Virus record (IMG/VR): IMGVR_UViG_3300009161_000264
Location: 1 to 21,897 of that record
Strand: one strand, 5' to 3'
DNA length: 21,897 bases
Source of the DNA: a virus
The notes below the pieces were generated by a model, which did no database searches, was not told the origin of the DNA, and was given only the letters and a program-made list of their open reading frames with translations. The translations under genes were made by a program, and so were the position numbers. How positions within the stretch are numbered: the first letter of the stretch is position 1; each line of letters starts with the position of its first letter. Below are positions 2,507 through 11,518 of the stretch, piece by piece.

Positions 2507-2950
2507 ATGCCAAAGTTTGCATATGTAAAAAATGGAACAGTCAAATATGTTCAATTAATTAGTTCGTCTAATCCAGCGCAAGATAGGTGGATAGCTTTAA
2601 ATAGATCTGGAGTTGTTTTAAAATACTCATCTAATTATGACATTATGCCAGGGGACTTATTTGTAGATGATAAATTCTATAAGAAAGATATAGAAACTGA
2701 TGCCACTACCTTAGCAGAAGAAGCCGACTTTGGGTTACCAGCAGTAAGATTTGCAGGAATTATAGATGGCGAAGTAGTAGGGCAATGGGGAGAAGGCAAA
2801 GAACTCTTTGATACTCAAGAAGAAATTGATGAATTTATTGATGATGTACTCACTTCAGAAATAGTTGAAGTAAGCAAAGCCGAACAGTTTTTAGTTGAAA
2901 AAGGTTGGCTCTATGATGGAGTTGATTTTACTAATCCAAACAATGTTTAA
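2507..2950 (+). CDS. Small accessory protein, possibly tail-fibre related
   Basis: 147 residues, acidic, soluble, no membrane segment. The N-terminal half has alternating beta-strand-like patterns ([30 protein letters not shown]) and the C-terminus ends [13 protein letters not shown]. That ending resembles the GW-Y-G-x-F-x-P ends of many phage tail fibre assembly or tail accessory proteins, but I cannot place it in a named family. The start is supported by AAGGAG at 2496-2501. It is the first gene of the operon and its stop overlaps the next start (TAATG). Function is not assigned. Confidence 0.65.
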
Positions 2951-3201
2951 TGACCGAAAAAGAAAATAAACAAAGCGCCTGGCAAAAGTATAAAGAAAAT
3001 TTAGGAACCACTAGACCGTGGGATCTTTTAAATCCAGCTACAGAATATGTAGACGCAAGCGTATCTAAAGAAAGATTTGACATTTGTCTTTCCTGTCCAG
3101 AATTAATAAAATTAACAAAGCAATGTAAACAATGTGGATGTTTTATGGTCTTGAAAACTAAATTACAAGACGCTACCTGCCCGTTAGGAAAATGGAGCTA
3201 A
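2950..3201 (+). CDS. Six-cysteine zinc-ribbon-like mini-protein
   Basis: 83 residues. Cysteines sit at about 46, 49, 59, 62, 64 and 77 in the arrangement CLSC, CKQCGC and TCPLGKW. Two CxxC knuckles and a nearby extra cysteine suggest a zinc or other metal site. Small proteins with this CxxC-CxxCGCF...CP(I/L)GKW pattern recur in marine and freshwater phage genomes to my knowledge, but I know of no proven function. The N-terminal 40 residues are charged and probably flexible. It starts inside the previous stop (TAATG) and ends 4 bases before an oxygenase gene. A partner or metal-handling role for the operon is only a guess. Confidence 0.7.
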   Translation: MTEKENKQSAWQKYKENLGTTRPWDLLNPATEYVDASVSKERFDICLSCPELIKLTKQCKQCGCFMVLKTKLQDATCPLGKWS

Positions 3202-3205
3202 AAAG

Positions 3206-3865
3206 ATGTATGAAAAAGAAGAGCTTGCCCCAGGAATTTGGGTTTACAGAGATGTAATAAAAAAAGAATTTGATATTACAAATCGGCTTGAATCGGGAAT
3301 TATAAATTCTAAAGGTATTCATACATGGAGAGATGCAACAGTAGGATACAGAGAAAAAAAACCAGAATATAGAGATTGCGTTGATTTTAAATGGAAAAAA
3401 TTTGATGAAGGCCCAGGTAATAAATTTGATCGTGAAATAAACTCCGTTTGGCAAGATGTTTATGATGCACAAAAAATAGCACTAGATGATTATTGTTCAT
3501 TTTACAATATTGACATGAAGTATTGGGAAGCTATGAACTTTATTAAATATGGACCAGGTCAACATTTCTCTTATCATGCAGATCACGGATGGTCTTATAT
3601 ATCAACAGTTTCAATGGTTGCATATATTAACGATGATTATGAAGAGGGCGGATTGAGATTTGATAAGTTTGATTTAACAATTAAACCCACTGCAGGAGAT
3701 TTATATATCTTCCCTTCAACATTTTTATTCTCTCATGCAGCATTACCAGTAAAATCAGGATTAAAATACTCTATTGTAACAATGACTGATTATAATGATA
3801 AAACGCATAATGAACAATTTTATAAACAGTTTATGTCGGAAGATTCAATTAAAGACGGGTATTAA
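3206..3865 (+). CDS. 2OG-Fe(II) oxygenase, prolyl 4-hydroxylase-like (1 of 7)
   Basis: 219 residues. A P4H-type double-stranded beta helix is evident: metal ligands H124 and D126 (YHADHG), the strand motif INDDYEEGG at 141-149, a KPTAGDLYIFP strand at 160-170, the third ligand H177 and K187 ten residues later as the expected 2-oxoglutarate-binding base. This family couples 2-oxoglutarate decarboxylation to hydroxylation, often of proline in P4H-like members; the actual substrate is unknown. The N-terminus (LAPGIWVYRDVI) matches the N-terminal motif of the paralogues at 6005, 7606, 8457 and 9185. GGAG at 3193-3196 supports the start. The protein is expected to be cytoplasmic. Confidence 0.9.
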   Translation: MYEKEELAPGIWVYRDVIKKEFDITNRLESGIINSKGIHTWRDATVGYREKKPEYRDCVDFKWKKFDEGPGNKFDREINSVWQDVYDAQKIALDDYCSFYNIDMKYWEAMNFIKYGPGQHFSYHADHGWSYISTVSMVAYINDDYEEGGLRFDKFDLTIKPTAGDLYIFPSTFLFSHAALPVKSGLKYSIVTMTDYNDKTHNEQFYKQFMSEDSIKDGY

Positions 3866-3867
3866 TT

Positions 3868-4602
3868 GTGGACTTTGATGTCTATAAGATTGACCCAATT
3901 AATTCCGCCGACATCCAGCCACTTGGAATTAAAAGGCAATGGATGGAAGAAACTTCTGACAAACACGCCTATCACTGTTTTCCAGTAAGTCTTTCTAATG
4001 CGCTTGGTTGGGGAATATCCTTTCCCACAGACATATCTTTTATTTGGGACGGCATTTCAGATTCAACTGATACTCATGTTCAAGTTTTAAGCGGGAAACA
4101 ATTTGTATCAACCGCAAGAGCCAATGCAACTATAAGCTTCAATACTAATCTTGTAATAACCACTAAAGACAATTTATCCATGCTTGCTATGCCAACTCCA
4201 AATTGGCCAATAGACGGAGTATGGCCATTCACAACATTAATTAGCACATCCTTTTTTAAAGGAACTTTTCCTATAGCCTGGAGAATAACTAAAAAAGATA
4301 AAATTATTACAATTCCTGCAAATACCCCAGTTGCTTCAATTATTCCAATATCTCTTTCTGAATTAAGTGGGTCTGTAGCAACCCTAAAACGGTACCAAGA
4401 TTTGCCTCAAAATTTCTTTCCAAAAGAAGATTATGGTAAGATTGTTAGCGATATAAATAAGTCTGGTAAGTGGACAGATTTTTATAGAGATGCCGTAGAT
4501 CATAAAAGAAATTCTATAGGAAGTCATGAAGTAAAAGCGCTAAGGCTAAAAGTAGATAATACTTTGTTTGATGGACCAGAGGGATGTGGAATTCCAAAAT
4601 GA
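3868..4602 (+). CDS. DUF6065-like protein
   Basis: 244 residues with a GTG start two bases after the previous stop. The pattern I recall for DUF6065 is visible in order: W25 in KRQWMEET, a HCFPVSLSNALGWGI block at 36-50, a MPTPNWPIDGVWPFTTLI block at 108-125, FPIAWRI at 134-140 and IPANTPVASIIPI at 149-161, then a more polar helical C-terminus. The family has no established function that I know of. It appears to be a beta-rich, possibly double-stranded-beta-helix fold, but that is inference. It lies between two oxygenase genes and next to a second protein with the same C-terminal block, so a shared process is likely. Confidence 0.6.
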   Translation: MDFDVYKIDPINSADIQPLGIKRQWMEETSDKHAYHCFPVSLSNALGWGISFPTDISFIWDGISDSTDTHVQVLSGKQFVSTARANATISFNTNLVITTKDNLSMLAMPTPNWPIDGVWPFTTLISTSFFKGTFPIAWRITKKDKIITIPANTPVASIIPISLSELSGSVATLKRYQDLPQNFFPKEDYGKIVSDINKSGKWTDFYRDAVDHKRNSIGSHEVKALRLKVDNTLFDGPEGCGIPK

Positions 4603-5318
4603 ATAAAATTAAATTTCATTCAAATAAATCTTATAATAAAGAAGAAACTGCTCCTATGCCAATGGCAAAAGTTATTCCTAAATGGTGGCGAGATGCTGAT
4701 ATATACATAAAAGACTTTTATGGAGATTTTGTTTCTAATCAATCAAATGATGGTGGTAAAGCTCTTAATTTTAAAGCATGCCCAGCAATGCTGGATACAT
4801 TTACAACAGGATATACATTAGTGACTCCATGTGAAATTGAATTTTATGAAAAAAATGGAAGAATTAAAGCAAAGTTTCCAGTGGAGTTTGAGGACTTTGT
4901 TGGAGAGCGTGGAGTATCAATGGGTTTTGCAGTGCCTCCAGGGTATGAAGCAAATCATTTTCATTGGTATGCAAATTGGGCGCCACAATTACCAGATGGA
5001 TATAGTTCTATTTATGTTCCTCCAATTAATCATTTTGATTTGCCGTGGATTACTGTCGGTGGTATAATAGATAGCGATAAGGTAACAACTTCTGGACTTA
5101 TTCCATTTTTTATTAAAAAGGGTTTTACTGGAATAGTACCGCAAGGGACCCCATACCTGCAGATTATTCCTTTTAAAAGAGAAGATTGGGAATCAGAAAT
5201 AATTTTTCATAAAAAGTTAGAAATTATGACTAAGGCAAAAAATACCTCTGATTTATTTAGACAGCCAGAAGGCGGAGTCTATAAAAAGTTATTCTGGACA
5301 AGGAGAAAGTACAAGTAA
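4599..5318 (+). CDS. Second DUF6065-like or related protein
   Basis: 239 residues from the ATG at 4599, which overlaps the upstream TGA (ATGA); an in-frame ATG at 4584 is possible but adds only MWNSK. The N-terminus has PMPMAKVIPKWWRD, then a FKACPAMLDTFTTGY block at 58-72, a long beta-rich middle with NHFHWYANW, and GIVPQGTPYLQIIPFKREDW at 178-197. The last block aligns with IPANTPVASIIPI of the gene before it, so the two are probably distant paralogues, here with stronger sequence than function clues. Proteins like this are seen as neighbours of 2OG oxygenases in other environmental phages as far as I recall. Function unknown. Confidence 0.6.
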   Translation: MNKIKFHSNKSYNKEETAPMPMAKVIPKWWRDADIYIKDFYGDFVSNQSNDGGKALNFKACPAMLDTFTTGYTLVTPCEIEFYEKNGRIKAKFPVEFEDFVGERGVSMGFAVPPGYEANHFHWYANWAPQLPDGYSSIYVPPINHFDLPWITVGGIIDSDKVTTSGLIPFFIKKGFTGIVPQGTPYLQIIPFKREDWESEIIFHKKLEIMTKAKNTSDLFRQPEGGVYKKLFWTRRKYK

Positions 5319-6008
5319 ATGCAAAATCAAGTTAATACCAACGACGCCCACGATTACAGATCTCTTGGATCAATTACGCCTTCAGGATTTTTTGGCACAG
5401 GCCCAGAAAATATTGTAGAATTAAAAAACTTTTTAACAGACGAAGAAAGAGAAAGACTTACTAATTTTGCTAGAACAAACAAGACTTGGGATATAACAGA
5501 TTCTCATGTAAATGAAAATGGAACAGTTATTTATGATGCCAGTGCCTGGGCTGATAGAGTCTGCACAAGAAGGTCGATGGAAATTTGTTCAGACCCACAG
5601 ATTGTTGATGTTGTAGAAGGATTAATTTCTAGACTTCGATTAGAGGTAGAAAAATTTTTTAAAGTTAAAGTTCAGGCAACAGGCCCAGCTATAGTTAGAT
5701 GGCCAGTTGGTACTAGACAAGATCCACATGCAGATAAAGAGTTACATGAAGGACCCGATGCGGGAACCCCAAATGATTTTCCACATTACGACCTAGCGTC
5801 TTTGTTTTATTTTAATGATGACTATGAGGGCGGAGAGCTTTTTTTCCCAGTACAAGGTATTGAATTTAAACCAGTTGGAGGCTCAGCATATTTTTTCCCT
5901 GGAGATAAAGGGTATATTCATGGAGTAAGGCCAATAATACAAGGCGGAAGGTATACATCACCATTCTTTTGGCAAATACTAGAACACACTGGAGACAAAA
6001 AGCCATGA
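5319..6008 (+). CDS. 2OG-Fe(II) oxygenase, prolyl 4-hydroxylase-like (2 of 7)
   Basis: 229 residues. Ligands H137 and D139 (DPHADKE), FNDDYEGGELFF at 165-176, PVGGSAYFFP at 185-194, third ligand H201 (YIHGV) and R211 ten residues later for the 2-oxoglutarate carboxylate. This is closer to the classical prolyl 4-hydroxylase layout than its neighbours: the N-terminal NIVELKNFLTDEERERL segment is a standard P4H opening, shared here only with the gene at 6849. It follows the previous stop directly (TAAATG), with AAGGAG in the preceding gene as ribosome binding site, and its stop overlaps the next start (ATGA), so translational coupling is likely. Substrate unknown. Confidence 0.9.
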   Translation: MQNQVNTNDAHDYRSLGSITPSGFFGTGPENIVELKNFLTDEERERLTNFARTNKTWDITDSHVNENGTVIYDASAWADRVCTRRSMEICSDPQIVDVVEGLISRLRLEVEKFFKVKVQATGPAIVRWPVGTRQDPHADKELHEGPDAGTPNDFPHYDLASLFYFNDDYEGGELFFPVQGIEFKPVGGSAYFFPGDKGYIHGVRPIIQGGRYTSPFFWQILEHTGDKKP

Positions 6009-6859
6009 CACTAGAATACGTAGAAATTTATCCAAAAATATTTGTTTTTAAAAATCCATGGAAAGATATTGATTTACTTGTAGAAACAATAAAAAAGTCG
6101 GAAGAAGAACCAGAAGGATCAGCCCTTCATTGGAAAGGCTGGTACACATTTGGCAAAGAAGCAGATCAATTTGACCATTCAGTAGTAGAGTCAGATAGAA
6201 AACAAACTGAGTTAAAGTTATGGAATGAAATAATTGAAGTTTTTCATGAAACAACATCTTATTATGCAAACAAATTTAATATACCAGTCGATAAAGATAA
6301 AAAAGTTTTTAATAAAGATGCTGGAACAGAAGATTTTATGTGGAAACTTATGGGACCATCTATATGCAAGTATGACGTAGGTGCAGGAATTGAAGATGAA
6401 GACCTAGCTATGCACGTTCATACAGACTATCAGAGGGAGTACCATGATTTTAGAGGGTACAAGTTTGCTTTTACCTGCACAATGTATTTAAACGATGACT
6501 ATGAGGGCGGCGGAGTAGAATATTTGGTTGACAACAAAGCTCTTTATTATAAACCAGAAAAAGGAGATGTTTTAATATTTCCAGCAGGAGATCCAGATTT
6601 TCTTTCTGATCAGGGTGAATACTATATGCACGGAGTAAAAAAAGTAGCTGTTAACCCAAAGTACTTTATTAGAAACCACTGGGTTAGATTTTATCCTGGA
6701 TCAAAAGAGTGGTTAGAAAATGAAGAATTATACGGTAAAGAAATGTGGAAAGAAATGGAAATTGCCAGAACAAAAAAAGAAAGAACAGAAGGCAAATATC
6801 AAAGTCTAAACTACGATGAAATTAAAAAGCTAGAAAGGATTATCTTAAATGACATTTAA
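6005..6859 (+). CDS. 2OG-Fe(II) oxygenase, prolyl 4-hydroxylase-like (3 of 7), with C-terminal extension
   Basis: 284 residues from the ATG at 6005, chosen because it overlaps the upstream stop as ATGA and gives the N-terminal EIYPKIFVFKN shared with paralogues; an earlier in-frame ATG at 5969 lies well inside the previous gene. Ligands H139 and D141 (HVHTDYQ), LNDDYEGGG at 162-170, KPEKGDVLIFP at 183-193, third ligand H209 (YMHGV) and K219. It has a lysine- and glutamate-rich extension of about 50 residues after the catalytic domain (from PGSKEWLENEELYG), which most of its paralogues lack. The extension could be for protein contacts. Substrate unknown. Confidence 0.88.
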   Translation: MTLEYVEIYPKIFVFKNPWKDIDLLVETIKKSEEEPEGSALHWKGWYTFGKEADQFDHSVVESDRKQTELKLWNEIIEVFHETTSYYANKFNIPVDKDKKVFNKDAGTEDFMWKLMGPSICKYDVGAGIEDEDLAMHVHTDYQREYHDFRGYKFAFTCTMYLNDDYEGGGVEYLVDNKALYYKPEKGDVLIFPAGDPDFLSDQGEYYMHGVKKVAVNPKYFIRNHWVRFYPGSKEWLENEELYGKEMWKEMEIARTKKERTEGKYQSLNYDEIKKLERIILNDI

Positions 6860-7604
6860 TCTAGAAAATCAAAATAGGGTCAAAGAAGATATAGTATTTT
6901 TTGAAAATTTCCTTACAGAAGAACAATGTTCTAATGTAATTAAATATTGGGAGCATTCTGCAGAAAAAGGTACACTCCCATGGGCTCCAATTTCATTCTA
7001 TGATTCGTTTGCATCAAATTTACCAGATGATGACGACAAAGAAAAATTTGGGTTAGAGCCAGATTTTTTTACAACGCTACAAGATAAAATTCAAGAGGCT
7101 ACAGAAATATGTAGAGGAGATAAACTTAAGTTGGTAAGCTACCATGCTCAAAAGTGGATAGAGGGCGCATATGCAGGATATCATTCAGACAATACGCCAC
7201 TAGAATCACCAGAGTATAATTCATTTGAAAGAAGTAAATGGGCAGCTTTTCTTTATTTAAATGAAGATTTTGAGGGTGGAGTTTTAAACTTTAGAGATCA
7301 CGAAATTGCCCTTCAGCCAAAAGTTGGAATGCTTGCTGCATTTGCAGGAGGACATGACAATATTCATGAAGTACAAATGATTACTAAAGGAACGCGATGG
7401 ACAATTGGTTCTTTTTGGGACAATATAGAAGCTGAATACGATGATGCTAAACAAGCTTTTTGGGAATCAGATATAGCAGAACAAAGAAAAAGACAAGCCG
7501 AAGACGCAGAGTCTTGGGCAGCATTAAAAGAAAAGGGAGAAAGGTTAAAGCCTGGCCCAGATCAAACTGCTAAAAAAGACGTTGCTTTAATAATAGGAGA
7601 ATAA
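6849..7604 (+). CDS. 2OG-Fe(II) oxygenase, prolyl 4-hydroxylase-like (4 of 7), with charged tail
   Basis: 251 residues, starting inside the end of the previous gene. Ligands H112 and D114 (YHSDNTP), LNEDFEGGVLNF at 137-148, QPKVGMLAAFAGG at 156-168, third ligand H173 (NIHEV) and R183. The N-terminal DIVFFENFLTEEQCSNV is the classical P4H opening, shared with the gene at 5319. After about residue 192 a highly charged, predicted helical tail (Glu, Lys, Ala, Gln-rich) follows, unlike the others. It is the most diverged member of the six with an intact site: YEGG has become FEGG. Substrate unknown. Confidence 0.87.
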   Translation: MTFNLENQNRVKEDIVFFENFLTEEQCSNVIKYWEHSAEKGTLPWAPISFYDSFASNLPDDDDKEKFGLEPDFFTTLQDKIQEATEICRGDKLKLVSYHAQKWIEGAYAGYHSDNTPLESPEYNSFERSKWAAFLYLNEDFEGGVLNFRDHEIALQPKVGMLAAFAGGHDNIHEVQMITKGTRWTIGSFWDNIEAEYDDAKQAFWESDIAEQRKRQAEDAESWAALKEKGERLKPGPDQTAKKDVALIIGE

Positions 7605-7605
7605 T

Positions 7606-8415
7606 ATGATAAAAGCTACAGTATTAGAAAACGGAATGATTAGAGAAGAACTTCACCCGCAAGTTTATTATTATAGAAATGCTATACCAAATGTAAAAGA
7701 ATGGCTAGATCGTGTAAATGATTCTGAAAATCACCCAGAACTACATTCAATAATTACACCATGGAATCAATGGGATGTAGATGAAAACAGGTCATTGGGG
7801 CACCCATATGTTTACGGATACAAAAAGCTTTGCCTGCTTAATAGTGTTTTCAACATAGACAAAGATGTTTCCGAGGAAACAAAGGAACTTTTTATTAACA
7901 TAAGAGACCCCTTGTTTAATGCCATGAAAGCAGTATGCGAAGACTATAAGAAAGAGCAAGGCATAGACAAAGAGCTTATCATACTTCCTCAATTTGGAGT
8001 TCATAGATACCGCGCTGGAAAGTTTATGGGAGTACATCATGATTCTCAAGAAGGAGATACACGATTACTTTATTCGCTAGTTGTTTGGCCAAATGATGAT
8101 TACGAAGGCGGAGAGCTTTCTTTTTCTATTAAGAATGGAGTATTGACTGGCACAGATAGTGCCCTGTGGGGAGACATTGATGATCCAAGAAATGAGGGAC
8201 AATATGATTTTTATATTAAGCCAGAAGCTGGAAGCATTGTAATTTTCCCCTCACCATCTCCATTTAGTCATACAGCTCATGAAGTAAAGTCTGGATGGAA
8301 GTACATGTTGCCAATGTTTTGGATAGACCCAACTGGAGAAGATGTTCTTTTTAAGTTAGACCCAGAGTTTAAGTTAGAATTTGTATACCCAGATAAAGAA
8401 GACTTATTTAAATGA
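7606..8415 (+). CDS. 2OG-Fe(II) oxygenase, prolyl 4-hydroxylase-like (5 of 7)
   Basis: 269 residues, one base after the preceding stop, with GGAG just upstream. Ligands H144 and D146 (VHHDSQEGD), PNDDYEGGELSFS at 162-174, KPEAGSIVIFP at 205-215, third ligand H222 (FSHTAHEV) and K232. The insert between the fourth strand and the KPEAG strand (LTGTDSALWGDIDDP...) is shared with the next gene. The two share long blocks: TPW..W near the N-terminus, H.DSQEGD/DQQEGD, NDDYEGGELSFS, SHTAH.VKSG.KYM. They are clearly tandem duplicates that have since diverged, so each probably has its own substrate or site. Substrate unknown. Confidence 0.9.
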   Translation: MIKATVLENGMIREELHPQVYYYRNAIPNVKEWLDRVNDSENHPELHSIITPWNQWDVDENRSLGHPYVYGYKKLCLLNSVFNIDKDVSEETKELFINIRDPLFNAMKAVCEDYKKEQGIDKELIILPQFGVHRYRAGKFMGVHHDSQEGDTRLLYSLVVWPNDDYEGGELSFSIKNGVLTGTDSALWGDIDDPRNEGQYDFYIKPEAGSIVIFPSPSPFSHTAHEVKSGWKYMLPMFWIDPTGEDVLFKLDPEFKLEFVYPDKEDLFK

Positions 8416-8422
8416 TAGATAG

Positions 8423-8431
8423 TGGTATAAT
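8423..8431 (+). promoter_or_regulatory. Extended -10 promoter inside the oxygenase operon
   Basis: TGGTATAAT, an extended -10 box, lies in the 41-base gap that is the largest break in this operon. I see no convincing -35. Transcription from about 8438 would give a short leader with AAAAGGAG at 8444-8451. It could boost the last two genes of the array separately. Confidence 0.5.
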
Positions 8432-8456
8432 GAATAATGTATTAAAAGGAGAACAA

Positions 8457-9173
8457 ATGATATCTGAAAAAATGTTTGACAAGGTTTATTACTACAAGAA
8501 TGTTTTATCCGACCCTCAAAATCTAATAAAATTAATTGAGGAAACTCAAAGCGATGACTATAAAGAGTTTGTTACTCCATGGGAAGAGTGGTCGGCCTGC
8601 AGTGGAGAAATGTATGTTTATGGAAATCATAAAAGAATAAAGTGTCTTACTATTGATGACGTAATGCTTAAATGCTCAGAAAATATTTTAGATAATTCTA
8701 AATATATCTTTAATGAAATTTTTGAAGGATTTAAAAACGTTTGTTTAGATTATGCAGAAAAAGTAAACGAAGAGGCTAAGGTTATTTTAATGACAGACAC
8801 TGCAATTAAACGTTATGAAACGGGTACATTTATGGGATCCCATTTTGATCAGCAAGAAGGAGATCAAAGATTAAAGTATTCTTTAGTAATGTATTTAAAT
8901 GATGACTATGAAGGCGGCGAGCTTTCGTTTAGTGTTAAAGATGGAGTACTTACTTCAACAGATAATGCAGCCTCAGAAGATTTTGAAAGTGATAAAAATA
9001 TAGGAAAATTAACTTTTTCTGTAAAGCCTGAAGCTGGAAGTGTAATAATTTTTCCTTCAGAGTCTCCATATAGTCACACAGCACATTTAGTAAAAAGCGG
9101 ATTCAAATACATGGTTCCGTCATTTTGGTTGAATAAAGGCTCATTTGTTGATGGAGTCTTTGTTCCAGAATAA
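8457..9173 (+). CDS. 2OG-Fe(II) oxygenase, prolyl 4-hydroxylase-like (6 of 7), tandem duplicate of the previous gene
   Basis: 238 residues from the ATG at 8457, which has AAAAGGAG five bases upstream; an in-frame ATG at 8412 overlapping the previous stop would add 15 residues with no homology to the paralogue and would start before the promoter-like box at 8423. Ligands H129 and D131 (SHFDQQEGD), LNDDYEGGELSFS at 147-159, KPEAGSVIIFP at 190-200, third ligand H207 (YSHTAHLV) and K217. Very close in layout to the gene at 7606, including its insert after the NDDYEGG strand. The N-terminal KMFDKVYYYKN motif is also shared. Substrate unknown. Confidence 0.9.
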   Translation: MISEKMFDKVYYYKNVLSDPQNLIKLIEETQSDDYKEFVTPWEEWSACSGEMYVYGNHKRIKCLTIDDVMLKCSENILDNSKYIFNEIFEGFKNVCLDYAEKVNEEAKVILMTDTAIKRYETGTFMGSHFDQQEGDQRLKYSLVMYLNDDYEGGELSFSVKDGVLTSTDNAASEDFESDKNIGKLTFSVKPEAGSVIIFPSESPYSHTAHLVKSGFKYMVPSFWLNKGSFVDGVFVPE

Positions 9174-9184
9174 AGGATTTTAAA

Positions 9185-9730
9185 ATGGCAATGTATGTTT
9201 TTCAAGAGCTGGCACCAAAAGTTTTTTACTTTACCTATTGTCTTCAAGAGATTGGTGGGTACATCGGATTCCTTGAAGAAAGTGAAAAGAATACAAGTAA
9301 TCTAATTAGTAAATGGCATGATGAAGAGTATGGATATGAAAAAAGAATATCCTCTGATTTTTCAAATGAAACAGAAACTGTAGATACCCGTAGCCTTTTT
9401 ATAATTAATAATTTAAAAGCCACATTTCACTATTGTTTTACTCAATATAAAATATTTAACAATATAGAAGAGCCAGTTAACTTGAGCCCTAAGTACTGGG
9501 TTAGAAAACATAATGAGGGCCAAGTAAAAAATAACTGTGGAGCAAATGGTAAATACACTGCTAGATTATACATCAATGATTCTTTTTCTGGTGGAGAAAT
9601 TTCAATACCTGGAAAACCTAGTTTTAAGCCAGAAGCAGGCAGCATAATTATAGCTCCATCAGATGTACAATTAACCGCAGAACCAGCTTATGGCAATTCA
9701 AGATATATTGCTATAGGCCATTGGGTTTAA
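9185..9730 (+). CDS. Degenerate 2OG oxygenase-fold protein (7 of 7), probable pseudoenzyme
   Basis: 181 residues, shorter than its paralogues. The fold markers remain: N-terminal ELAPKVFYFTYCL, YINDSFSGGEISI at 129-141, FKPEAGSIIIAPSD at 147-160 and R173 in the 2-oxoglutarate position. The metal site is gone: where HxD should precede the YIND strand there is NNCGANGK, and where the third His should stand ten residues before R173 there is Gln-Leu. It therefore cannot bind iron in the usual way. The frame is intact with no stop, so selection has probably kept it, perhaps as a binding or regulatory subunit of one of the active paralogues. AAAGGA upstream supports the start. Confidence 0.78.
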   Translation: MAMYVFQELAPKVFYFTYCLQEIGGYIGFLEESEKNTSNLISKWHDEEYGYEKRISSDFSNETETVDTRSLFIINNLKATFHYCFTQYKIFNNIEEPVNLSPKYWVRKHNEGQVKNNCGANGKYTARLYINDSFSGGEISIPGKPSFKPEAGSIIIAPSDVQLTAEPAYGNSRYIAIGHWV

Positions 9731-9754: not shown

Positions 9755-11518
9755 ATGTCATATTATTTGTCTTTAATTAAAGACTCACCACTTGCCTTTT
9801 GGAAGATGGACGAGTCTTCTGGATCTATTGCATATGATTCATCTGGCAACGGTAATAATGGTACATATGCTGGACAGATATTAAAATCTGGAATGCCAAT
9901 TGTATCTGGCGGAGTGCATTCGAATAAAATAGATAATGTAAACTATGTACAATTTACCCTTTCAAAAGATTTTTCTGGAACAACTGGCACTGGCGGATTT
10001 GCAACTAATTCAACATACGATAATGATTTTACATTAGAGGCATGGATACATCCAAAAACATTAACCTCATTAACACCGATACTTGCAGATTCAAGTGGTA
10101 TTGGATTGTATTGGGATAAAGGAAATATTGTATTTAAATTAGAGAGTGAAAGAATTGATTATTCAGTTCCCAATCCCAATAGAGTAATTTATGTTGTTGG
10201 TGTCTATTCAGTTTCTTCTATGAGTCTTTATATTGATGGTGTTTTGGTAGCATCTAAATCAATATCTATTAAATTTACAAACACTAGCGTTACCCTTTCT
10301 TCAGGACCAGCCTCGGCTGGAGAATATTTTATAATTGATTGCCCAGCAGTATACAGATATTCATTATCTCAAGCAGCAATAATGTTACACTACAATAATC
10401 TATCATTAAATAATGATGAACAAGTTTCTGTACCAGACCTAGGCGAATTGTTTAGGGGATCAGAAAAATATCAAGATATAGAAACAAGATATGTTTATCC
10501 AGTCCAGGTTGCTTGGGACACATTAATATATGACAACGAAGCGTTATCTTATAGTAAAAATAATAATAGCATTTATTTAAATTCAGGATTTACATCTGGA
10601 GAATTTGTAGAGGATATATTTTTAAATATTACAAAAAATTATGTATCTTCAAAAATTGATTGGGTTTCTTCTAGTGGAGTATCGGTATATGTTTCAGAAA
10701 CTTCAAATTCTGGCCCTTGGACACCTTGCGTAAATGGGTCACCAATACCAGGCTTTTCTCAAGGTTCTGCATTTTCTTCAACAAAAGTATTATATTTTAA
10801 ATTTGTATTTACATCTACAAACTCAGACGTTTACTTACCAGAACTATATTCTTTAAAAATTTATTTCTACTCTGAAAAGAAAATGTTTTCACATAATGGC
10901 GGAAGTACATTGTCGATATCACAACCTACATCTGGATCAAATTGGGATTTTGATGTATCCAATAATAGCTATCCAATTAGAACTAGAAATTATTATAATG
11001 GAATAAGACCAAAAACCTCAGCATTTTTTATAGAGTCAATAAATAATGTTAGGAATATTGAAATGATATTTACTCCAAAATCATTGTCTAGCGGTCATTT
11101 AATATTTAATAAAACTGGATCCACAGAGACTTCTCTTTCTTGGGCGGCAGGCGGAGTGATATCAAAATCTAACATTAGTAATATTTATATAAATGGCCAG
11201 GATATCTCTTCAGCAACAAACATATCTTCGTATTTGTATATAGATGAGCCTAACTATATATTAATAAAGACAACCACTATAATTGTTGGTCAAATATGGT
11301 TTAATGGGAAGCAGCTGGTGGGAGTCAGATCAAGCGTCTTAGACGATAATTTATATCAAAATATAGCGCTATATGCAAATGATTCTATTAGTCATCAAGA
11401 GCATTATGATTTATATATCGGGAAGACGGCTTCTGTTGCCCAGGGATCGGCCATGGAGCTGACAGAAGAGTCAGTAAGAACATACTCAAGAGACAGGGTC
11501 GTGTTCCAAATACTATAA
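9755..11518 (+). CDS. LamG / concanavalin A-like surface or tail protein
   Basis: 587 residues. A laminin G-like jelly roll covers roughly residues 1-225: FWKMDESSGSIAYDSSGNGNNGTY at 15-38 is the classic opening, with DFTLEAWIHPK at 91-101 and MSLYIDGVLVASKS at 156-169. A second similar lobe may lie at about 428-570 (VRNIEMIFTPKSLSSGHLIFNK, IYINGQDIS, IWFNGKQL). Between them is a beta-rich linker. Such domains in phages usually bind carbohydrate on tail fibres, spikes or capsid decorations. The protein begins on an apparently leaderless mRNA, and the dyad after its stop may separate it from the assembly genes. Placement between the oxygenase operon and the portal module is unusual for a tail protein; a role in host contact is inferred. 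Confidence 0.75.
   Translation: MSYYLSLIKDSPLAFWKMDESSGSIAYDSSGNGNNGTYAGQILKSGMPIVSGGVHSNKIDNVNYVQFTLSKDFSGTTGTGGFATNSTYDNDFTLEAWIHPKTLTSLTPILADSSGIGLYWDKGNIVFKLESERIDYSVPNPNRVIYVVGVYSVSSMSLYIDGVLVASKSISIKFTNTSVTLSSGPASAGEYFIIDCPAVYRYSLSQAAIMLHYNNLSLNNDEQVSVPDLGELFRGSEKYQDIETRYVYPVQVAWDTLIYDNEALSYSKNNNSIYLNSGFTSGEFVEDIFLNITKNYVSSKIDWVSSSGVSVYVSETSNSGPWTPCVNGSPIPGFSQGSAFSSTKVLYFKFVFTSTNSDVYLPELYSLKIYFYSEKKMFSHNGGSTLSISQPTSGSNWDFDVSNNSYPIRTRNYYNGIRPKTSAFFIESINNVRNIEMIFTPKSLSSGHLIFNKTGSTETSLSWAAGGVISKSNISNIYINGQDISSATNISSYLYIDEPNYILIKTTTIIVGQIWFNGKQLVGVRSSVLDDNLYQNIALYANDSISHQEHYDLYIGKTASVAQGSAMELTEESVRTYSRDRVVFQIL

Follow-up and report, generated by a model that had tools for sequence, protein, structure and literature searches.

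The oxygenase array and the adjoining repeat gene

The window analyzed here is the 21.9-kb (21,897 nucleotides) IMG/VR virus record IMGVR_UViG_3300009161_000264, which carries genes for a portal (11923), a protease, a major head protein and a tape measure. It contains, between a gene for a tail-fibre-like protein (2-1381) and one for a LamG/concanavalin-like protein (9755-11518), a tightly packed block of nine genes, named A to I (3206-9730, 6.5 kb), of which seven, making up 78% of the block, encode proteins resembling 2-oxoglutarate (2OG)/Fe(II) oxygenases. A gene lying upstream of this array (1411-2421) encodes a protein ending in 28 P-P-x-F units, and we consider this neighbouring protein a likely substrate of the array, or at least of some of its enzymes. 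A preliminary description of the locus had given correctly the coordinates of the block and the number of 2OG-fold genes, as well as their overlapping or nearly touching arrangement (the intergenic gaps range from -19 to +11 bases). The seven genes are not contiguous, however, as it had described them, since the DUF6065-type genes B and C (3868-5318) are located after A and before D. The repeat gene, immediately upstream, was left outside that finding. All genes of the window described here between 2 and 11518 are on the plus strand.

Six of the seven oxygenase-like proteins are above the curated Pfam cut-off of 27 bits for 2OG-FeII_Oxy_3 (PF13640) in the profile search that had been suggested as a check: A (3206-3865; 45 bits, and phrog_61 at 8.5e-24), D (5319-6008; 28.8 bits), E (6005-6859; 32.3 bits), F (6849-7604; 35.6 bits), G (7606-8415; 40.6 bits) and H (8412-9173; 47.2 bits). 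The ATG of E at 6005 overlaps the stop codon of D. HxD, a distal His and a Lys/Arg were found in each of them (A is of the Lys type and D of the Arg type), which bears out the six intact sites reported earlier, and the same H-D-H-K/R site is intact in 703 of 765 profile matches comprising array and related proteins. Arrays of 3-11 2OG genes are present in more than 200 IMG/VR loci examined (a redundant count), and the one in the window is far from a chance occurrence. Moreover, all the genes of the array are under purifying selection, with dN/dS mostly between 0.03 and 0.2; when the most distant locus was compared, some genes had higher values.

By profile and by predicted fold, enzyme D resembles protein prolyl hydroxylases. 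Its profile matches the Bacillus anthracis prolyl 4-hydroxylase (P4H) at 2.2e-6 and the human prolyl 3-hydroxylase 1 (P3H1) at 1e-5 in the PDB. The model of D, the one oxygenase modelled, has a predicted local distance difference test (pLDDT) value of 91.8 and the double-stranded beta-helix of the 2OG fold, and its matches include P3H1 (Z 16.4), PHD2 (Z 15-16 for P3H1 and PHD2), the chlorovirus enzyme vCPH (Z 15.4) and a Pseudomonas P4H, with the B. anthracis P4H also among the nearest folds. Foldseek placed vCPH (PDB 5c5t) at rank 1, and the Chlamydomonas P4H bound to (Ser-Pro)5 was also close. The enzymes could alternatively be nucleic-acid (base) hydroxylases for DNA hypermodification, in favour of which it can be said that 2OG oxygenases of this type exist in phages and that some weak PHROG matches of the array bear labels like 'DNA endonuclease V'. 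We regard this reading as extremely improbable: none of the nine block proteins has a Pfam match to base-hydroxylase families (TET/JBP type), the PHROG models so labelled match 2OG proteins in their turn, and location and fold point to proteins as substrates.

The seventh protein, I (9185-9730), has no Pfam match, but it aligns almost end to end with G and H (blastp 1e-7 and 3e-8, respectively). It has lost HxD and the distal His and has retained the Arg. The earlier label of degenerate copy is correct, because distant orthologues of I (in loci L349, L352 and L354) still have an intact iron site. The gene is under purifying selection (dN/dS about 0.08-0.16 in three comparisons), and within the clade of the window I can be described as a conserved pseudoenzyme belonging to the G/H class.

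The proposed substrate of the array, encoded at 1411-2421, has an FN3 domain (Pfam fn3, 2.6e-10) followed by 28 uninterrupted P-P-x-F units with 56 prolines (2023-2358; 18 PPFF, 9 PPHF and 1 PPYF) and by a Cys-rich C-terminus; it also shows a weak match to the PHROG 'major tail protein' (6.5e-5). For the motif count, 86 repeat segments were taken from loci that had been reached by way of the portal, D or B and not by way of the repeat. Phe is at +3 from the first Pro in 99.6% of 1387 PP pairs (entropy of 0.04 bits), while position x varies freely (2.5 bits). A bias from loci chosen by their repeats was considered as the source of this motif and rejected, as the recount on the portal-, D- and B-found loci gave the same result. 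The spacing between PP pairs is 4, 6, 7, 10 or 13, so that the constant Phe cannot be put down to a simple tandem repeat of the DNA. The conserved PPxF pattern looks like an enzyme recognition motif.

Hydroxylation of the repeats could instead occur mainly at Phe, His or x, or the repeats could be the target of some paralogues only, with others acting on host proteins, the fibre protein or the FN3 domain. The fourth-position Phe is the least variable residue of the unit, other 2OG protein hydroxylases act on non-proline residues, and the six active paralogues, which represent five or more old classes, are more than two prolines per unit need. On the other hand, prolyl hydroxylases are the closest relatives of D with a solved structure and the Phe is also explained as a recognition residue next to the prolines, which makes this alternative unlikely. 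The proximity of short repeated cores to several tailoring-type enzymes, together with the Cys-rich C-terminus in the window protein, also recalls the ribosomally synthesized and post-translationally modified peptides (RiPPs). The repeat tract would then be the multi-core precursor of a secreted RiPP-like peptide, tailored by the array and the DUF6065-type proteins. Against this stands the fact that neither a peptidase nor a transporter was seen among the array genes and that the repeats are located in FN3-type or large structural-looking proteins amid tail genes, and we find such a pathway very unlikely.

Some other features of the repeats were observed. In the tract at 2023-2358, 44 of the 46 Phe codons are TTC, as compared to 36 of 168 in the other genes of this AT-rich phage, which may reflect avoidance of T runs. 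The reverse-strand open reading frames (ORFs) at 1987-2355 and 2018-2554, rich in WWEERWEE/VVGRTVGR, mirror the PPxF repeat DNA and are not genes. Second, large structural-looking proteins ending in PPxF repeats are encoded on module- or repeat-bearing contigs (L368:138-2537, L262:8942-11326 and L354:1-1683), one of them with a weak PASTA match. In five other proteins the repeat seems, by eye, to be followed by a HINT/autoprocessing-like C-terminal domain (L022:2-1099, L033:1-1065, L036:1-1068, L043:2-1105 and L039:1216-2574); a Pfam scan of those from L022 and L039 gave no match to such a domain.

Linkage and inheritance of the repeat gene and the array

The association between the repeat gene and the array was observed in loci collected in several ways. 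Among loci found through enzyme D and having at least 5 kb of upstream sequence, a Pro/Phe-repeat ORF was present upstream, 1.5-4 kb away, in 37 of 37, and loci found through the DUF6065 protein B had the repeat gene upstream in 43 of 43. The loci found through the portal comprised 13 with both elements, 15 with neither and none with the repeat without the array; in four more, the contig with the array ends before the repeat gene, and for one of these the repeats were seen in another part of the same contig, L266. The Fisher test on the portal-found loci gives p 7e-6, which is not independent evidence, since only one or two changes on the portal tree are needed. When IMG/VR was scanned for repeat DNA, 549 of 593 2OG genes were downstream on the same strand and 15 were upstream on the same strand. 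Altogether, repeat and array occur together in well over 100 viral contigs of this type.

Eighteen repeat records with few or no 2OG genes nearby were considered as counter-cases and discarded, as 16 of them encode at least one elsewhere on the whole contig, some up to seven, and the remaining two are fragments of 14.6 and 36.8 kb. As a control, no repeat gene was found in 80 loci surrounding single phage 2OG genes. Likewise, neither a 2OG gene nor a PPxF pair occurs on the contigs of 14 sister phages that are devoid of the array, and PPxF repeats were absent from three cyanophage genomes checked, including S-SCSM1 with its 24 reported 2OG genes. The repeat is rare in cellular contigs, with 15 stretches of the pattern found among 11.3 million contigs scanned. 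Among these, bacterial metagenome-assembled genome (MAG) contigs labelled Verrucomicrobiales, Gammaproteobacteria and Chitinophagaceae (L321, L325, L331 and L332) carry the clear FPP-type repeats; these are probably phage DNA binned into MAGs, because 2OG and/or DUF6065 genes share the contig with the repeats.

It could be argued that the array acts on surface glycans, lipids, small metabolites or host 2-oxoglutarate levels, the repeat gene being merely part of the same exchangeable host-interaction cassette. Linked genes do transfer together, the slot of the cassette holds other surface proteins, some of them glycine-rich, in sister phages, and metabolic roles were proposed for the 2OG genes of cyanophages (PMC3037559, PMC9602691). 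However, an array unrelated to the repeats would not easily account for their co-occurrence in all D- and B-found loci as opposed to none of the loci with single 2OG genes, nor for the contigs that carry the repeat and 2OG genes at a distance from each other, and the folds are those of protein hydroxylases. We thus see little likelihood in such substrates. In particular, the reading of the array as auxiliary metabolic genes for host metabolism is disfavoured because of the co-occurrence and the controls.

When 153 enzymes from 24 loci were placed in a tree, A, D, E, F and G/H/I formed separate classes, each with members from many arrays. The pair G and H, 40% identical (blastp 7e-66), is the sole one that looks like a younger duplication. 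Recent tandem amplification as the origin of the array was rejected, since the same classes recur across arrays and G/H alone appears recent. The picture of a still evolving array given in the preliminary description did not hold, as most arrays sampled have these classes in common. The array thus appears, from the tree, to be an old, co-inherited module of orthologous enzyme classes. Moreover, in 53 loci the repeat type correlated with enzyme D when the portal was accounted for (partial Mantel r 0.43, p 0.0005) and did not correlate with the portal when D was accounted for (r -0.03, p 0.81). The repeat type seems to track the enzyme type rather than the phage backbone, and therefore the repeat gene and the array would move between phages as one unit.

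A putative proline-hydroxylating module

We propose a module of two parts, in which the PPxF-repeat protein encoded just upstream is modified by the enzymes of the array. Once both have been expressed, the six active oxygenases would act on prolines of the 28 P-P-x-F units and hydroxylate them with Fe(II), O2 and 2-oxoglutarate. The paralogues would probably split this work, between the first and the second proline, between the 3- and the 4-position, or in successive passes. The tail or fibre could thereby gain a stiff rod, rich in hydroxyproline and similar to polyproline II, and I (the pseudoenzyme), B and C (of DUF6065 type) may help as scaffolds or as adaptors that hold the substrate. In this scheme we infer that catalysis takes place and that the prolines are its site, and likewise how the labour is divided, that the repeat protein is located in the virion and what B, C and I do. 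The preliminary description pointed away from DNA metabolism and towards modification at the surface, and for proteins of the virion this direction is well supported by the likeness to prolyl hydroxylases and by the adjoining proline-rich tail-region protein. The choice that it left between several targets and ordered action on one can be narrowed to the PPxF repeats as the single most likely target.

Several points weigh against this proposal. Six active enzymes exceed the obvious need of a two-proline unit. PiuC and a Shewanella oxygenase, whose substrate is untested, match the fold of D nearly as well, so the predicted fold supports prolyl hydroxylation without proving it. The covariation of repeat type and enzyme D could be produced by linkage alone of adjacent genes, and the loci are related, with the D sequences forming five clusters at 80% identity. 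On the portal tree, array and repeat agree in 70 of 70 rows, but only one or two gains or losses are needed, and for this reason the co-occurrence counts are not independent trials. The evidence that places the repeat protein in the virion consists of its FN3 domain, its weak tail match and its neighbours. Finally, the chlorovirus P4H hydroxylates Pro peptides in vitro, yet no hydroxyproline was found in virions (PMC7019647).

This last enzyme, vCPH of chlorovirus PBCV-1, is also a virus-encoded protein of P4H fold and is among the best matches to D. It acts on proline peptides in a sequence-specific manner and its role is not known (PMC7019647). It is a single enzyme of an algal virus, whereas in the phage six active paralogues adjoin one repeat protein. 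The P4Hs of algae and plants act on long proline-rich repeats that give extracellular polyproline-II rods, as in Chlamydomonas and its mastigonemes (PMC11015965), and the Chlamydomonas enzyme, as mentioned, is close in fold to D. These P4Hs belong to the eukaryotic secretory pathway and their hydroxyproline is then glycosylated, in contrast to the phage PPxF units; no glycosyltransferase was recognised in the array. The collagen hydroxylases (P3H1 and collagen P4H) and the B. anthracis P4H, which provide the best profile and fold matches to D, act on Gly-X-Y or collagen-like chains, and the phage repeats do not have a Gly-X-Y pattern.

Among phages, the T4-like cyanophages have 2OG-Fe(II) oxygenases of the same superfamily, up to five per genome (PMC3037559) and 24 in S-SCSM1 (PMC9602691), with proposed roles in metabolism or DNA repair. 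Thus the number of 2OG genes is not unusual by itself, contrary to what the depth of the array had suggested earlier, but in the stretches of cyanophage genomes viewed these genes lie apart, unlike those of the window. Many 2OG oxygenases have been noted in phages of aquatic bacteria, with substrates uninvestigated (PMC9602691). Isolated Nanopelagicales phages have collagen-like proteins in a tail-fibre island (PMC10202952), which like the PPxF protein are repetitive and structural and belong to the host-recognition island of freshwater actinophages; the text of that report mentions no oxygenase or hydroxylase.

A P4H with a proline-rich partner is therefore of a known kind, as in collagen, algal wall proteins and the chlorovirus. 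A phage module pairing a conserved hydroxylase set with a PPxF protein appears to be undescribed: a search on phage and virus oxygenases, hydroxylation and hosts, covering open-access literature with most subscription papers outside it, found no such module reported. By analogy with animals and their collagen, or plants and their cell-wall proteins, it is suggested that this freshwater phage hardens or decorates its own surface protein chemically, because the enzyme genes nearly always travel with the neighbouring Pro/Phe-repeat tail-region gene. It may be that freshwater actinophages build a hydroxyproline-rich PPxF appendage using the hydroxylase set, the pseudoenzyme and helpers of dUTPase fold, as a counterpart of collagen or extensin maturation exchanged as one host-recognition cassette; this wider proposal could equally prove right or wrong. 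The locus offers a concrete and testable enzyme-substrate pair, with six hydroxylases predicted to be active from their intact sites and an adjoining PPxF-repeat protein. If the pairing is true, this would be the first known phage, within the literature searched, to build a hydroxyproline-rich structural protein post-translationally, and would provide a prokaryotic system for making hydroxylated fibres that are stiff, repetitive and genetically encoded.

DUF6065-type proteins, flanking genes and host

Protein B (3868-4602) belongs to DUF6065 (PF19541; 2.8e-31, 109.3 bits against a curated cut-off of 26.6), and its gene is directly 3' of A in the arrays inspected. A search of phage records with B gave no match, and no mention of DUF6065 was found in the open-access literature searched. 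Protein C (4584-5318; phrog_7084, 3e-31) is related to B by hhalign alone (probability 95.9): it did not reach the DUF6065 cut-off, and against Pfam it matched no family, dUTPases included, even at E 1. The monomer model of C (pLDDT 87.6) is predicted to have a dUTPase-like fold, as the best 50 matches in a structure comparison (VIA) were all dUTPases (Z 8.4-10.1, with 113-128 residues aligned); by Foldseek the best E was marginal, 1.7e-3. A PDB sequence search with C found nothing. By eye, a G-x-I-D-x-D stretch in C resembles motif 3 of dUTPases. We can only speculate that C is a trimeric adaptor for the repeat protein. Relatives of C are found in haloarchaeal tailed viruses (HF1 and others), with no recognised oxygenase neighbours in the one examined. 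If the module is real, DUF6065 would gain a context and a likely fold.

Two small genes are located between the repeat gene and the array. The first (2507-2950) has no Pfam or PHROG match; an orthologue is present in L341, and none was detected in L334 or L337. The second (2950-3201) encodes a four-Cys, DUF6171-like protein (PF19668 at 4.2e-6, barely above the cut-off; phrog_13558 at 2.7e-18). The tail-fibre-like gene (2-1381), whose 5' end is cut by the contig, adjoins the repeat gene on its upstream side and matches PHROG tail fibre families (best E 1.9e-29). Downstream of the array, the LamG/concanavalin-like protein (9755-11518) matches PF13385 (2.1e-13) and phrog_11584, and sister phages without the array have this gene too.

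The nearest isolates by portal are Streptomyces phages, about 56-58% identical. WhiB, an actinophage marker in freshwater work (PMC6802176), is encoded on four of the larger module contigs, which measure 54.9-114 kb. The slot occupied by the module, with its varying surface proteins, fits a host-recognition region. In one relative without the array (L045:458-4563), the same slot contains a Gly/Tyr/Cys-repeat protein and an NDP-sugar-dehydratase-like gene.

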